NCBI GenBank assembly: GCA_008501735.1
Contig: QQUF01000035.1
Span: 124,001 to 188,000 of the forward strand
Length of the DNA stretch: 64,000 nucleotides
DNA from: Calditrichota bacterium
GTDB lineage: Bacteria; CLD3
Reading direction: 5' to 3'
The notes beneath the pieces are model-generated. The model saw only the letters and a program-made list of their open reading frames with translations. It was not told the DNA's origin and made no database searches. The position numbers were made by a program, and so were the translations under genes. Each line of letters starts with the position of its first letter. Positions within the stretch are counted from its first letter, which is position 1. Of the stretch, positions 41,511 to 56,350 are shown piece by piece.

Positions 41511-43034
41511 TTGATTTTTTTAGAAGTAAAGTTCAAAGGCGGAAGAAAAATATTTTACAGAAACCCTCAGGAATTTCCGCTAAGAGCAGGTGATAGAGTT
41601 ATCGTTCAAGCCGACAGAGGCTACGATTTAGGAAAAGTTGCTGTTCCACAAGTTGACGACTCTATCGCTCACAAGGAGTTTTTTGAAGTAATCAGAAAAC
41701 CAAACAAAACCGACTTAGATAAACTGGTTGAGAATAAAAAATTAGAAAAAATAATTTTTCGCGAAGTAAAAAAAACTATGCGAGAATTTAATCCAATGAT
41801 GAAACTTGCAGACGTTGAATATCAATTTGACCGAAGTAAAATTTCTTTCTTTTTTACTTCCGATAGACGAATTGACTTTAGAGATTTAGTCAAAGAATTA
41901 GCTTCTCGTTACAAAGCAAGAATCGAATTACGCCAAATCGGAGTTCGAGACGAAGCCAAAAGAATCGGCGGTTGTGGAGTCTGTGGTCTTGAACTTTGTT
42001 GCACAACTTTCCTCAAAGGCTTCGAGCCAATCTCAAGTCAGTACGCAAAAGAACAAAGCCTTACTTTGAATGCCTCAAAACTTTCAGGTTCCTGTGGAAG
42101 GCTCAAATGTTGCTTAGTTTACGAAAGAGATTTTTACGTCGAAGAACTCAAAAAATATCCTGAAATTGATTCAATTCATAAAATTGAAGGGGTTCCTGTT
42201 TTAATTGACAAAATTGACGTTTTTAAAAACATAATTTACGTCAAAAATTTACTTGATAACTATTGGGATAATTTTACTCCTGAGCAGTGGGAAGAACTCA
42301 AACCTGAATTTATGCTTCCGCCAGAGGAAATTGAAACAATCACGCGACCAAACTACGCAAAATTAGATGCAAAATTTCAACCAACTCGTGATGAAGTTGC
42401 CGTCCTACGAAAAGTCTATTCTGAAAGACTTGGAGAAGTAAAAAATCAAGAAAATGATTCAACAAATTCTTCGAGTGGGAACGGTAAAACGAACCAAAAG
42501 GTTGTTTCAAAATTCAAAGCTGTTGAAGAAGAAAATCAATTTGAAAAAGATGCGATTGTTGGAACAGAACCTCAGAAGAAAAATGAAAACCGCTCAGCAA
42601 AAAAACGCTCTCAGAAATCGAGACAACAAAACAATCAGCAAAAACCTAAGTCAAAAAATCAGAACAAACCTCAAAAACAACAAAATAACAATACTAATGC
42701 GTCTAAAACCCCAGCTAATCCAATTAAAAATGATTCTCAGAAGAAACCAAACGAACAAAAAACAAAAGTAACTTCTTCAGGAATTCCAATTCCTGAAATT
42801 AGAAATACTTCTCAGAAACCACAAAATTCTGAAAAAGCAAAAGTAACTTCTTCAGGAATTCCAATTCCACCAGTTAAAAATGTTTCTCAAAAAACAAAAA
42901 ATGACGCAAAGCCTAAAGTAACTTCTTCAGGAATTCCAATTCCACCAATCGCTAAATTTGTAAGAGAGAAACAGAAAAAAACCGCTGAAAAAACAAACTC
43001 GCAACCAAACGAAAACCCTGAAAATAAAAGTTAA
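41511..43034 (+). CDS. PSP1/RicT family protein with a basic repeat tail
   Basis: RicT-type PSP1 proteins belong to the YaaT/YlbF/YmcA complex that in Bacillus governs RNase Y-dependent mRNA maturation. The conserved cysteine blocks CGVCGLELCC and CGRLKCC lie in the PSP1 domain (about 1-270). The last 150 residues are Lys/Asn/Gln-rich and disordered, and end with three 25-residue repeats beginning KVTSSGIPIP. The upstream frame from 41457 overlaps the holB terminator; AAAGGA precedes the TTG at 41511, so that start is preferred. metG follows 11 bases later, as seen in several genomes where ricT lies near holB and metG. Confidence 0.88.
   Translation: MIFLEVKFKGGRKIFYRNPQEFPLRAGDRVIVQADRGYDLGKVAVPQVDDSIAHKEFFEVIRKPNKTDLDKLVENKKLEKIIFREVKKTMREFNPMMKLADVEYQFDRSKISFFFTSDRRIDFRDLVKELASRYKARIELRQIGVRDEAKRIGGCGVCGLELCCTTFLKGFEPISSQYAKEQSLTLNASKLSGSCGRLKCCLVYERDFYVEELKKYPEIDSIHKIEGVPVLIDKIDVFKNIIYVKNLLDNYWDNFTPEQWEELKPEFMLPPEEIETITRPNYAKLDAKFQPTRDEVAVLRKVYSERLGEVKNQENDSTNSSSGNGKTNQKVVSKFKAVEEENQFEKDAIVGTEPQKKNENRSAKKRSQKSRQQNNQQKPKSKNQNKPQKQQNNNTNASKTPANPIKNDSQKKPNEQKTKVTSSGIPIPEIRNTSQKPQNSEKAKVTSSGIPIPPVKNVSQKTKNDAKPKVTSSGIPIPPIAKFVREKQKKTAEKTNSQPNENPENKS
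42765..42989 (+). repeat. Three 75-bp tandem coding repeats in the ricT tail
   Basis: Lysine codons opening KVTSSGIPIP lie at 42765, 42840 and 42915, exactly 75 bases apart, so each unit is 25 residues. The first ten residues are identical in all copies and the remaining fifteen have diverged. Confidence 0.85.
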
Positions 43035-51293: not shown

Positions 51294-51311
51294 TTGTACC
51301 ATAAAGTACAA
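51294..51311. repeat. Short inverted repeat TTGTAC-N6-GTACAA
   Basis: A perfect 6-bp palindrome around CATAAA lies upstream of the first CotH gene. It resembles sites at 8788-8807 and 53842-53873, which also have GTAC arms separated by six bases. Confidence 0.35.
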
Positions 51312-51436: not shown

Positions 51437-53737
51437 ATGAAAAAAATTACTCTACTACTCACAAGTTCAATTTTGTTGCTTGTTACGCTAAACCTTTTCA
51501 GTCAAGGTTTGTATGATATTAACACAATCAACACGATTGACATTACTTTCACAGAATCAAATTGGGACCAAATTTTAGACAATTATTACGCTGCTGAAAA
51601 CGATGAAAGACTCATAGGAACTGCTGTTATCAACGGAGTTCAGTACGACAGCGTTGGAGTTAAGTACAAAGGCAATTCAACTTACAGTGCAAACAACGTT
51701 AAGAACCCTCTTAATATCAAGCTAAATTACATTTTAGACCAAGACTATGACGGTTATAAAACTCTAAAATTATCAAATGGGGCAAATGACCCTGCTTTCA
51801 TTCGTGAGGTTCTTTCATACGAAGTCGCAAGAAAATATATGGATGCTTCGTTAGCAAATTTCACGAAAGTTTACATTAATGGAAATTACCACGGACTTTA
51901 CACAAGTGTCGAATCGGTCAACGGAGATTTTCAAGAAAATTTCTTAAATGCAGATGATGACAACACAAGAATTAAATGTAATCCTGTCAGTGTCCAGAAT
52001 GGTGGCTCTTCTTTAAGTTACTTGGGAACTGACTCAACTTCTTACTATAACTACTACGAAATGGCTTCTGATTATGGTTGGCAAGATTTGATTGATTTGA
52101 CTTACACAATCAACAACGACCCAACAAACATCGAAAACATTCTTGATATTGACAGAACTTTATGGAAATTAGCTTACAATAATGTTTTTGTAAATTTAGA
52201 CAGTTACACAGGTGTTTTTCGCCAAAATTATTATTTAATCAAAAATGACAACGGAATCATCTCTCCTGTAATTTGGGATTTAAATATGTCTTTCGGGGGA
52301 TTTGGAATGTTAAACCAAGGACCTGGCGGAAGTGGCTCAACTACTTTAATAACTATGGATCCTCTTTTAAGACAAAACGAATCAGGTTGGCCACTCCTCA
52401 ACTTGCTTCTTGGAAATCCGACTTACAAAAAAATGTATATGGCCCACTGCCGAACAATGTTGGAAGAAAATGTTATCAATGGTTGGTACTCAGCAAAAGC
52501 AGATTCTTTGCAAGACTTAATTGCTGTTGATTACCAAGCAGACCAAAACAAGTTTTATACTTATTCACAAATGCTTACAAATTTAAATTCTTCAGTTTCA
52601 GGTGGTGGAGGCGGACCTGGCGGTTCAACAGTTGGAATTACTCAACTTATGGAAGCACGAAGAACTTACTTGGAAACTCACGCTGAATATACTTACACTC
52701 CTCCAACAATCAGTAACATTCAAGTAAGCAATACAAGTTCTTTGGCAACTTTTAACGTAACAATTACAAACGGAACCACTGCTTTCCTCGGTTATAAACT
52801 CAGTAAAAAAGATGAGTTCACAAAAGTAGAAATGTTTGACGACGGAAACCACAACGACGGTGCTGCAGGCGATGGAGTTTTTGGAATTGAAGTTCCTGTT
52901 CAAGTTGGAAAAGTTAAATACTATTTTTACTCTGAAAATACAAACGCAGGAATGTTTTCACCTGAAAGAGCTCAGCACGAATTTTATGAATTGCCTGTAA
53001 ACAGCGATGTTGTGATTAACGAATTTATGGCTTCAAACGATACAACTGTTGCTGACCAAGATGGTGAATTTGATGATTGGATTGAACTTTACAATACTTC
53101 AAACAGCCCAATTTCTCTAAATGGATTCTTCTTAACTGACGACAACAACGACTTAACTCAATGGGCTTTCCCTGACACAACAATCGGAGCGAATGATTTT
53201 CTAATCGTTTGGGCTGATAACGATTCTGGACAAGTTGGTTTACACGCAAATTTCAAACTTTCTGCTGGAGGCGAAGATATTTTCCTTGTTGATGCTGACA
53301 CAAACATTGTTGACGAAGTTGATTTTGGAAATCAAAATAATGATGAATCTTATGGAAGATTTCCAGATGGAACAGGAGATTTTGGAATAATGACAAATCC
53401 TACTTTTGCTGCTCCAAATTCGAACCTCACAAGTATTTTTGAAGGTGAAGAAATTACTCCAAGAAGTTTTAGCCTTGAGCAAAACTTCCCTAATCCTTTC
53501 AACCCAACAACTACGATTAATTACGAATTAGAAATTACGAATTACGAATTTGCGAGACTCTCAATTTTTAATGTTCTTGGACAAAAGGTAAAAGAATTTG
53601 AACTTACAGAACCAAAAGGTTCGGTTGTTTGGAACGGAACTGATTCTTTTGGAAAACAAGTTTCAAGCGGAGTTTATTTTTACCGATTAGAATCTGCAAA
53701 CCAAGTCCAAACTCGTAGAATGATTTTACTAAAATAA
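51437..53737 (+). CDS. Secreted CotH-kinase / lamin-tail protein with T9SS sorting domain (copy 1)
   Basis: The 766-residue protein has a signal peptide (to about residue 23, FSQG) and a CotH domain about 25-400 (NWDQILDNYY, YDSVGVKYKGNSTYS, YINGNYHGLYTSVESVN). A glycine-rich linker GGGGGPGGS follows, then a beta-rich region and a lamin-tail domain about 530-640 (VVINEFMASNDTTVADQDGEFDDWIELYN). The end is a T9SS type A sorting domain (SLEQNFPNPFNPTTTINYEL to RMILLK). CotH proteins are atypical kinases in Bacillus spore coats; in T9SS bacteria they are surface proteins of unknown substrate. From base 52481 the gene is identical to the next one. AGGAACC lies upstream. Confidence 0.9.
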   Translation: MKKITLLLTSSILLLVTLNLFSQGLYDINTINTIDITFTESNWDQILDNYYAAENDERLIGTAVINGVQYDSVGVKYKGNSTYSANNVKNPLNIKLNYILDQDYDGYKTLKLSNGANDPAFIREVLSYEVARKYMDASLANFTKVYINGNYHGLYTSVESVNGDFQENFLNADDDNTRIKCNPVSVQNGGSSLSYLGTDSTSYYNYYEMASDYGWQDLIDLTYTINNDPTNIENILDIDRTLWKLAYNNVFVNLDSYTGVFRQNYYLIKNDNGIISPVIWDLNMSFGGFGMLNQGPGGSGSTTLITMDPLLRQNESGWPLLNLLLGNPTYKKMYMAHCRTMLEENVINGWYSAKADSLQDLIAVDYQADQNKFYTYSQMLTNLNSSVSGGGGGPGGSTVGITQLMEARRTYLETHAEYTYTPPTISNIQVSNTSSLATFNVTITNGTTAFLGYKLSKKDEFTKVEMFDDGNHNDGAAGDGVFGIEVPVQVGKVKYYFYSENTNAGMFSPERAQHEFYELPVNSDVVINEFMASNDTTVADQDGEFDDWIELYNTSNSPISLNGFFLTDDNNDLTQWAFPDTTIGANDFLIVWADNDSGQVGLHANFKLSAGGEDIFLVDADTNIVDEVDFGNQNNDESYGRFPDGTGDFGIMTNPTFAAPNSNLTSIFEGEEITPRSFSLEQNFPNPFNPTTTINYELEITNYEFARLSIFNVLGQKVKEFELTEPKGSVVWNGTDSFGKQVSSGVYFYRLESANQVQTRRMILLK

Positions 53738-53800
53738 TTTTACTTTCTTTTCATAATGGGTTCCTAAATAGCGTCTCGATTTATTTCAAGACGCTATTCC
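52481..53800 (+). repeat. Exact 1,320-bp direct repeat, copy 1
   Basis: This segment matches 55031-56350 base for base in my line-by-line comparison, with sharp borders. It covers the last 418 codons of the first CotH gene, its stop and the following hairpin. The offset is 2,550 bp. Confidence 0.93.
53767..53798 (+). terminator. Hairpin after the first CotH gene
   Basis: AATAGCGTCT and AGACGCTATT form a perfect 10-bp stem with a 12-base loop, followed here by CCCTTTTT. An identical hairpin follows the second CotH gene (56317-56348) inside the exact repeat. Confidence 0.65.
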
Positions 53801-53841
53801 CTTTTTGGGACTTTTAATTCTAAAATTATTTTTTCATTTAA

Positions 53842-53873
53842 ATTAGAAGTGTACAGATAAGTACACTTCTAAT
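53842..53873. repeat. 13-bp hairpin between the CotH genes
   Basis: ATTAGAAGTGTAC (53842-53854) and its complement (53861-53873) flank AGATAA. It lies upstream of the second CotH promoter. The GTAC-N6-GTAC centre matches the smaller palindromes at 8788-8807 and 51294-51311. Its role is unknown. Confidence 0.55.
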
Positions 53874-53936
53874 ACCCCAAACTTAGCTTTAACAATCAAA
53901 ATCCCCCTATCAAAGTTTTAAATCCATTTTTTAATT

Positions 53937-53953
53937 TTGGTACGAATATTGAC
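53937..53953 (+). promoter_or_regulatory. Sigma-54-like promoter for the second CotH gene
   Basis: The site TTGGTACGAATATTGAC keeps TTGG, ACG and TTG at consensus positions, with GA instead of GC at -12 and GG-N10-GA spacing. It is 40 bases before the start codon, nearly the same as in the first copy. Confidence 0.5.
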
Positions 53954-53992
53954 TGAGTAGTAAATAAAAAATTAAACTTAGGAACTAATAAA

Positions 53993-56287
53993 ATGAAAAA
54001 AATTACTTTACTTACAAGCTCAATTTTACTACTTGTCTCACTAAACCTTTTCGGTCAAGGTTTTTACGACACTAACACAATTAACACAATCGAAATTACT
54101 TTCGCCGAATCTAATTGGGACCAAATTTTAGACAATTATTATTCGGCTGGAAATGACGACAGACTTATTGGAACTGCTTTAGTAAATGGAGTTCAGTACG
54201 ATAGTGTTGGAGTTAAGTACAAAGGTAATTCAACCTATAGTGCAAACAATGCCAAAAACCCTCTTAACATAAAATTAAATCATATTTTAGACCAAGACTA
54301 CGATGGTTACCAAACTCTAAAACTTTCAAGCGGAGCAAAAGACCCTTCATTTGTGCGTGAGGTTTTATCTTACGAAATTTCAAGGAAATATATGGATGCT
54401 TCACAAGCAAATTTCATAAAAGTTTACATCAACGGAAATTATCACGGACTTTACACAAGTGTCGAATCTGTGAACGGAGATTTCCAAGATGGATATTTAA
54501 ATGCGGACAAAGACAACACAAGAATCAAATGTAATCCTGTCAGTGTTTTTAATGGAGGTTCTTCACTTGAATATTTGGGAACCGATTCAACATCTTACTA
54601 TGACTACTACGAAATGGCTTCTGAGTATGGTTGGCAAGATTTGATTGATTTGACTTACACAATCAACAACGACCCAACAAACATTGAGAACTTTCTCGAT
54701 ATTGACAGAACTATTTGGAAACTCGCTTTCAACAATGTTTTTGTAAATTTGGACAGCTATACTGGACCTTTTAAACAAAACTATTATTTAATAAAAAATG
54801 ACAACGGAATTTTAGTTCCTGTAATTTGGGACTTTAATGAAAGTTTTGGTGGTTTTTCAATGATTGGTGGCACTGGAGGAGGAGGACAAACTGCCTTAAT
54901 GCAACTCGACCCTCTTTTAAGACAAAACGAATCTGATTGGCCACTTTTAAATCTACTTCTTGGAGACCCAACTTACAAAAATATGTACATTGCACATTGC
55001 CGAACAATGCTTCAAGAAAATGTTTCAAGCGGTTGGTACTCAGCAAAAGCAGATTCTTTGCAAGACTTAATTGCTGTTGATTACCAAGCAGACCAAAACA
55101 AGTTTTATACTTATTCACAAATGCTTACAAATTTAAATTCTTCAGTTTCAGGTGGTGGAGGCGGACCTGGCGGTTCAACAGTTGGAATTACTCAACTTAT
55201 GGAAGCACGAAGAACTTACTTGGAAACTCACGCTGAATATACTTACACTCCTCCAACAATCAGTAACATTCAAGTAAGCAATACAAGTTCTTTGGCAACT
55301 TTTAACGTAACAATTACAAACGGAACCACTGCTTTCCTCGGTTATAAACTCAGTAAAAAAGATGAGTTCACAAAAGTAGAAATGTTTGACGACGGAAACC
55401 ACAACGACGGTGCTGCAGGCGATGGAGTTTTTGGAATTGAAGTTCCTGTTCAAGTTGGAAAAGTTAAATACTATTTTTACTCTGAAAATACAAACGCAGG
55501 AATGTTTTCACCTGAAAGAGCTCAGCACGAATTTTATGAATTGCCTGTAAACAGCGATGTTGTGATTAACGAATTTATGGCTTCAAACGATACAACTGTT
55601 GCTGACCAAGATGGTGAATTTGATGATTGGATTGAACTTTACAATACTTCAAACAGCCCAATTTCTCTAAATGGATTCTTCTTAACTGACGACAACAACG
55701 ACTTAACTCAATGGGCTTTCCCTGACACAACAATCGGAGCGAATGATTTTCTAATCGTTTGGGCTGATAACGATTCTGGACAAGTTGGTTTACACGCAAA
55801 TTTCAAACTTTCTGCTGGAGGCGAAGATATTTTCCTTGTTGATGCTGACACAAACATTGTTGACGAAGTTGATTTTGGAAATCAAAATAATGATGAATCT
55901 TATGGAAGATTTCCAGATGGAACAGGAGATTTTGGAATAATGACAAATCCTACTTTTGCTGCTCCAAATTCGAACCTCACAAGTATTTTTGAAGGTGAAG
56001 AAATTACTCCAAGAAGTTTTAGCCTTGAGCAAAACTTCCCTAATCCTTTCAACCCAACAACTACGATTAATTACGAATTAGAAATTACGAATTACGAATT
56101 TGCGAGACTCTCAATTTTTAATGTTCTTGGACAAAAGGTAAAAGAATTTGAACTTACAGAACCAAAAGGTTCGGTTGTTTGGAACGGAACTGATTCTTTT
56201 GGAAAACAAGTTTCAAGCGGAGTTTATTTTTACCGATTAGAATCTGCAAACCAAGTCCAAACTCGTAGAATGATTTTACTAAAATAA
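53993..56287 (+). CDS. Secreted CotH-kinase / lamin-tail protein with T9SS sorting domain (copy 2)
   Basis: The 764-residue paralogue of the preceding gene has the same layout: signal peptide, CotH domain, glycine-rich linker, lamin-tail domain and T9SS sorting domain. The first 346 residues differ from copy 1 at about 60 positions by eye (roughly 83% identity), while the last 418 residues are identical even at DNA level. The divergence in the CotH part includes the loop GGFSMIGGTGGGGQTALMQ against GGFGMLNQGPGGSGSTTLIT, two residues longer in copy 1. This pattern suggests an old tandem duplication followed by recent gene conversion of the 3' half. It has its own promoter-like site and hairpin. 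Confidence 0.9.
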   Translation: MKKITLLTSSILLLVSLNLFGQGFYDTNTINTIEITFAESNWDQILDNYYSAGNDDRLIGTALVNGVQYDSVGVKYKGNSTYSANNAKNPLNIKLNHILDQDYDGYQTLKLSSGAKDPSFVREVLSYEISRKYMDASQANFIKVYINGNYHGLYTSVESVNGDFQDGYLNADKDNTRIKCNPVSVFNGGSSLEYLGTDSTSYYDYYEMASEYGWQDLIDLTYTINNDPTNIENFLDIDRTIWKLAFNNVFVNLDSYTGPFKQNYYLIKNDNGILVPVIWDFNESFGGFSMIGGTGGGGQTALMQLDPLLRQNESDWPLLNLLLGDPTYKNMYIAHCRTMLQENVSSGWYSAKADSLQDLIAVDYQADQNKFYTYSQMLTNLNSSVSGGGGGPGGSTVGITQLMEARRTYLETHAEYTYTPPTISNIQVSNTSSLATFNVTITNGTTAFLGYKLSKKDEFTKVEMFDDGNHNDGAAGDGVFGIEVPVQVGKVKYYFYSENTNAGMFSPERAQHEFYELPVNSDVVINEFMASNDTTVADQDGEFDDWIELYNTSNSPISLNGFFLTDDNNDLTQWAFPDTTIGANDFLIVWADNDSGQVGLHANFKLSAGGEDIFLVDADTNIVDEVDFGNQNNDESYGRFPDGTGDFGIMTNPTFAAPNSNLTSIFEGEEITPRSFSLEQNFPNPFNPTTTINYELEITNYEFARLSIFNVLGQKVKEFELTEPKGSVVWNGTDSFGKQVSSGVYFYRLESANQVQTRRMILLK

Positions 56288-56350
56288 TTTTACTTTCTTT
56301 TCATAATGGGTTCCTAAATAGCGTCTCGATTTATTTCAAGACGCTATTCC
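55031..56350 (+). repeat. Exact 1,320-bp direct repeat, copy 2
   Basis: This is the partner of 52481-53800. The bases next to both borders differ (T against C on the left, C against A on the right), so the identity ends abruptly, as after gene conversion or unequal exchange. Confidence 0.93.
56317..56348 (+). terminator. Hairpin after the second CotH gene
   Basis: The same 10-bp stem as at 53767-53798 is followed here by CCATTTTAG. It is the expected end of the second CotH transcript. Confidence 0.6.

Follow-up and report, generated by a model that had tools for sequence, protein, structure and literature searches.

What history could leave two adjacent genes diverged over their first halves and matched base for base over their second? 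This question is raised by a tandem pair of CotH genes in the window, i.e., the whole stretch of 64,000 nucleotides analysed here, which belongs to the genome of a Calditrichota bacterium (hereafter G000) from a sparsely sampled phylum.

Gene pair and domain architecture

The two genes are arranged as follows:
51437-53737, + strand: CotH copy 1, an open reading frame of 766 aa
53993-56287, + strand: CotH copy 2, an open reading frame of 764 aa with the domain order of copy 1

In copy 1, a signal peptide-like N-terminus is followed by a CotH kinase-like domain (aa 75-379), a choice-of-anchor X region, a lamin tail (aa 522-630) and a T9SS sorting tail (aa 684-763). The two proteins scored 131.8 and 138.8 bits against the PF08757 (CotH kinase family) profile, for which the curated cut-off is 23.8. 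The CotH domain profile also matched the Bacillus CotH structures 5jd9/5jda (E = 4.4e-34) with both key aspartates aligned; a single-sequence PDB search gave no real match, and the CotH structure was recovered by the profile alone. Residues D255 and D281 (copy 1 numbering) were invariant in alignment A1, were retained in both copies and aligned with the Asp pair of 5jd9, which is spaced 23 residues apart, like D228/D251 of B. subtilis. The Bacillus CotH mutants D228Q and D251A are inactive (PMC7821199). The profile match and the aspartates thus place both copies in the CotH kinase family, with kinase activity predicted. Unlike the Bacillus spore-coat kinase, the window proteins are predicted to be secreted, carry a lamin tail and a T9SS tail and give no sign of a spore-coat role.

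Both proteins matched TIGR04183, the C-terminal T9SS sorting domain, and SprA is encoded on another contig of the same genome (G000:C28); from the sorting domain and this translocon gene, both are predicted to be T9SS cargo. Many Bacteroidota and members of neighbouring phyla encode similar CotH-LTD-T9SS proteins, at about 30-50% identity, and the two copies are ordinary representatives of this protein type. A literature search for CotH combined with T9SS found nothing relevant.

Each gene is preceded by an inverted repeat:
51295-51310, + strand: TGTAC-N6-GTACA, about 127 bp 5' of the copy-1 ATG
53850-53865, + strand: TGTAC-N6-GTACA, about 128 bp 5' of the copy-2 ATG, with arms reaching 12 bp

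The flanking bases show compensating changes between the copies. A count over 4.14 Mb gave only five exact sites (0 for the reversed control), and one besides these two lies upstream of a lamin-tail gene (L265). The motif is possibly an operator or a hairpin. Elsewhere in the window, a 75-bp unit occurs three times in tandem at 42722-42949, at about 79% identity; if coding, it would specify a 25-residue repeat. An Rfam scan of 46-62 kb returned no matches.

Identical tract and its borders

The features that define the identity pattern are listed below:
52481-53800, + strand: identical tract, copy-1 side, 1,320 bp exact, beginning at codon ~349 and ending directly after the hairpin
55031-56350, + strand: identical tract, copy-2 side, an exact 1,320-bp match to the copy-1 side
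53767-53800, + strand: terminator-like hairpin after copy 1, inside the tract (-20.8 kcal/mol, z -5.0), repeated after copy 2
53801-53992, + strand: spacer between the copies, ~62% identical to the region upstream of copy 1
52073-52131, + strand: short identical tract within the diverged 5' half, 59 bp exact, at an offset of 2,553 and in a local block with dS 0.44

The assembly thus contains the exact repeat, stop codon and hairpin included, that the original prediction had described. The two matching stretches, offset by 2,550, begin close to where the CotH domain ends and span the anchor-X, lamin-tail and T9SS-tail regions, the stop codon and the hairpin. Within the coding 5' half, directly before the border, identity drops to ~80%; beyond the 3' end of the tract there is no clear homology between the two copies. 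Shuffling the 197 differences 20,000 times never produced an identical run above 165 bp; the 1,320 bp observed are thus far more than chance would give. The 59-bp tract had P = 0.0004 under a uniform shuffle, which ignores codon constraint. The 156 bp upstream of both copies share ~62% identity; since the spacer resembles the region upstream of copy 1 to this extent, the duplicated unit included the promoter region.

Reliability of the assembly

The caution of the original prediction that an assembly artefact must be ruled out was well placed. Where contig ends of this genome overlap exactly, they do so by 127 bp, with no overlap of 141 bp or more; from this we infer short-read assembly on a de Bruijn graph at k = 127, so that the copies could hide collapsed SNPs. 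A repeat of 1,320 bp is too long for such k-mers to span, and within the 212-kb contig it was probably walked as a simple graph loop A-R-B-R-C. Scattered 3' SNPs might have been collapsed in the graph, as SPAdes collapses bulges (PMC6736328), or the repeat count might be wrong, with more than two R-B units. Yet segment B (53801-55030, the spacer and the 5' half of copy 2) is flanked by the repeat on both sides, which leaves the tandem layout as the one simple path through the graph, forced unless a free circle exists. Furthermore, a 3' half diverged by 20% would not collapse at k = 127, and dense divergence begins exactly at the border. An artefact of this kind is therefore an unlikely source of the pattern. 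The tandem arrangement, the high similarity and the much closer resemblance of the 3' halves than of the 5' halves are secure. The same does not hold for perfect identity or for a count of precisely two copies, and the 3' halves are best described as at least nearly identical.

Three contigs of the same genome, C18 (59 kb), C22 (45 kb) and C27 (39 kb), overlap themselves, with exactly 127 bp shared between their own two ends. This gives C18 and C27 the look of circular molecules (plasmid or phage); C22 overlaps C11 as well.

Divergence classes and proposed history

Over the first 348 aligned protein columns, 58 differ between the copies, in line with the roughly 60 amino acid differences originally counted. 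The 5' halves gave dS 0.90, dN 0.11 and dN/dS 0.12 (0.04-0.18 per block), against a dS of 0 for the 3' halves, where no difference occurred over 268.7 synonymous sites. The orthologue in G001, the only same-family relative in the comparison, shared 68.3% DNA identity with the 5' half and 69.7% with the 3' half. This homologue alignment, which the original prediction had proposed as a check for conversion, shows that stronger conservation is no inherent property of the 3' half; because G001 diverges equally in both halves, the 3' match points to recent copying rather than to selection on the sequence. Of the sites at which the 5' halves differ, G001 shares 76 with copy 1 and 75 with copy 2. Given this equidistance, the duplication most simply postdates the split from G001, with the 3' halves homogenised later. 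The 5' halves represent old duplicates held under purifying selection. Synonymous identity is thus bounded within otherwise diverged copies whose outgroup is normally diverged, as expected for gene conversion, and the predicted recent conversion, or an equivalent unequal exchange, is supported by the sharp borders and the contrast in dS.

These results very probably reflect a tandem duplication, divergence under purifying selection and then recent homologous recombination between the copies over the 3' half. In this history, a CotH-type kinase gene would have been duplicated together with its upstream region and terminator after the lineage left G001, the nearest relative compared, and the copies would then have diverged under purifying selection. 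RecA-type homologous recombination between the direct repeats may subsequently have overwritten ~1.3 kb of one copy with the other, from codon ~349 to past the terminator. Triplication and deletion by unequal exchange would be an alternative route leaving the same trace; the two are indistinguishable by pattern, and either copy may have been the donor. The tract at 52073-52131 is probably the trace of an earlier, shorter event. CotH genes at C103 and C225 of G001 and at C24 of G000 were considered as sources of the tract and rejected as different paralogues, the 5' half at C24 having 30% identity.

An older truncated gene that very recently gained the 1.3-kb 3' segment, by partial duplication or insertion, would have reached the same end state. 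However, the two genes and the orthologue in G001 are all complete and colinear, and the upstream regions are homologous; it is simpler to suppose that a 3' half already present was replaced, and the insertion route seems very improbable.

A dedicated system for antigenic or substrate variation, in which CotH heads are exchanged on a shared tail, appears no more probable than such an insertion. The repeats could recombine into one chimeric gene, and a comparable logic is known for the bab genes (PMC4552749), but the 5' dN/dS of 0.12 and the absence of extra copies stand against it, as does the lack of conservation of the pair in relatives; no host or immune pressure is known. The suggestion that the CotH domain is left free to vary was not supported: no block exceeded a dN/dS of 0.18 and both copies keep the catalytic aspartates. 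Changes between the copies cluster most densely in a glycine-rich loop near codons 290-307. Nothing in the pairwise dN/dS, which is low throughout although averages could hide a few selected sites, speaks for adaptive CotH variation. Nor did the proposed antigenic-variation or dosage device find support: this genome yielded no further gene copy able to act as a silent cassette, and the tandem pair was not seen in the other genomes among the nine of the phylum, the G001 orthologue lying on a short 5.5-kb contig where a neighbour was possibly collapsed. Neither donor cassettes nor diversifying selection, the marks of antigenic or phase variation, were thus found.

That selection alone holds the 3' half identical is scarcely conceivable, even for functionally constrained lamin-tail and T9SS-tail domains, as the synonymous sites are identical too and the DNA identity of this half with G001, just 70%, is on a par with that of the 5' half.

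Comparison with known systems

Recombination between the copies, the preferred reading, has close precedents. The rgpA, kgp and hagA genes of Porphyromonas gingivalis carry adhesin repeats that are identical within and between genes and defeat automated assembly (PMC5266723). Like the window pair, these gingipains and haemagglutinin are T9SS-exported surface proteins, and the gingipain genes join distinct catalytic heads to shared identical sequence; unlike the pair, they are not tandem CotH genes, the shared part consists of adhesin repeats, and the organism is a host-associated pathogen. The outer-membrane paralogues babA, babB and babC of Helicobacter pylori are homologous (>90%) in their C-terminal region and variable in the middle, and they undergo gene conversion within the genome (PMC4552749). 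The common C-terminal part and conversion between copies recall the window pair, whereas separate loci, phase-variable CT repeats and demonstrated variation between isolates have been shown for the bab genes only. In the concerted evolution of prokaryotic duplicates such as tuf, paralogues are made alike by conversion (PMC6053082), with same-genome copies alike at synonymous sites as here; those cases are whole-gene and long-lasting, while the window pair involves the 3' half only, with one recent event and the trace of another. The mechanism is therefore covered by a known process and is not a new system, and ordinary concerted evolution, with no additional function, would probably suffice.

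Similar mosaics elsewhere

A second T9SS tandem array occurs in the same genome at the starts of C9 and C58, and also C49 (L144, G000:C9:1-4000; L192, G000:C58:1-4000). Its proteins combine a HYDIN-type Ig domain with a T9SS tail and match Vps10/BNR weakly. Identity ranges from 65 to 100% per 150-bp window, with an exact run of 252 bp, and the array looks like a product of mosaic recombination, with the caveat that the contigs break inside it. In G056, from another phylum, tandem CotH genes (L263 7453-11510; G056:C36) reach 99% and 94% at codons 451-510, which fall in the lamin-tail region, and mostly 50-80% elsewhere. An exact 140-bp repeat in G056, considered as a 3'-end tract, actually lies mid-gene in the lamin-tail region. 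As both the C9/C58 array and the G056 pair are mosaic, such recombination is probably routine. No comparable tract was found in the tandem or nearby CotH pairs of L073, L083, L087, L090, G100, G107, G111, G120, G247, G135 and G059, indicating that the tract is not universal among tandem CotH pairs.

Implications

The pair is a clear and well-controlled example of concerted evolution confined to half a gene, here in tandem genes for secreted proteins from a phylum for which nine genomes were compared. It also serves as a warning against trusting short-read genomes on how many copies of such genes exist and whether these are exactly identical. It is conceivable, though doubtful, that the tandem T9SS arrays of this lineage are continually reshuffled by recombination, combining common anchoring tails with differing heads and so giving a free-living bacterium a permanent source of surface diversity. 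If the mosaicism of the second array is general, the surface-protein families of this genome would evolve more by recombination than by point mutation.
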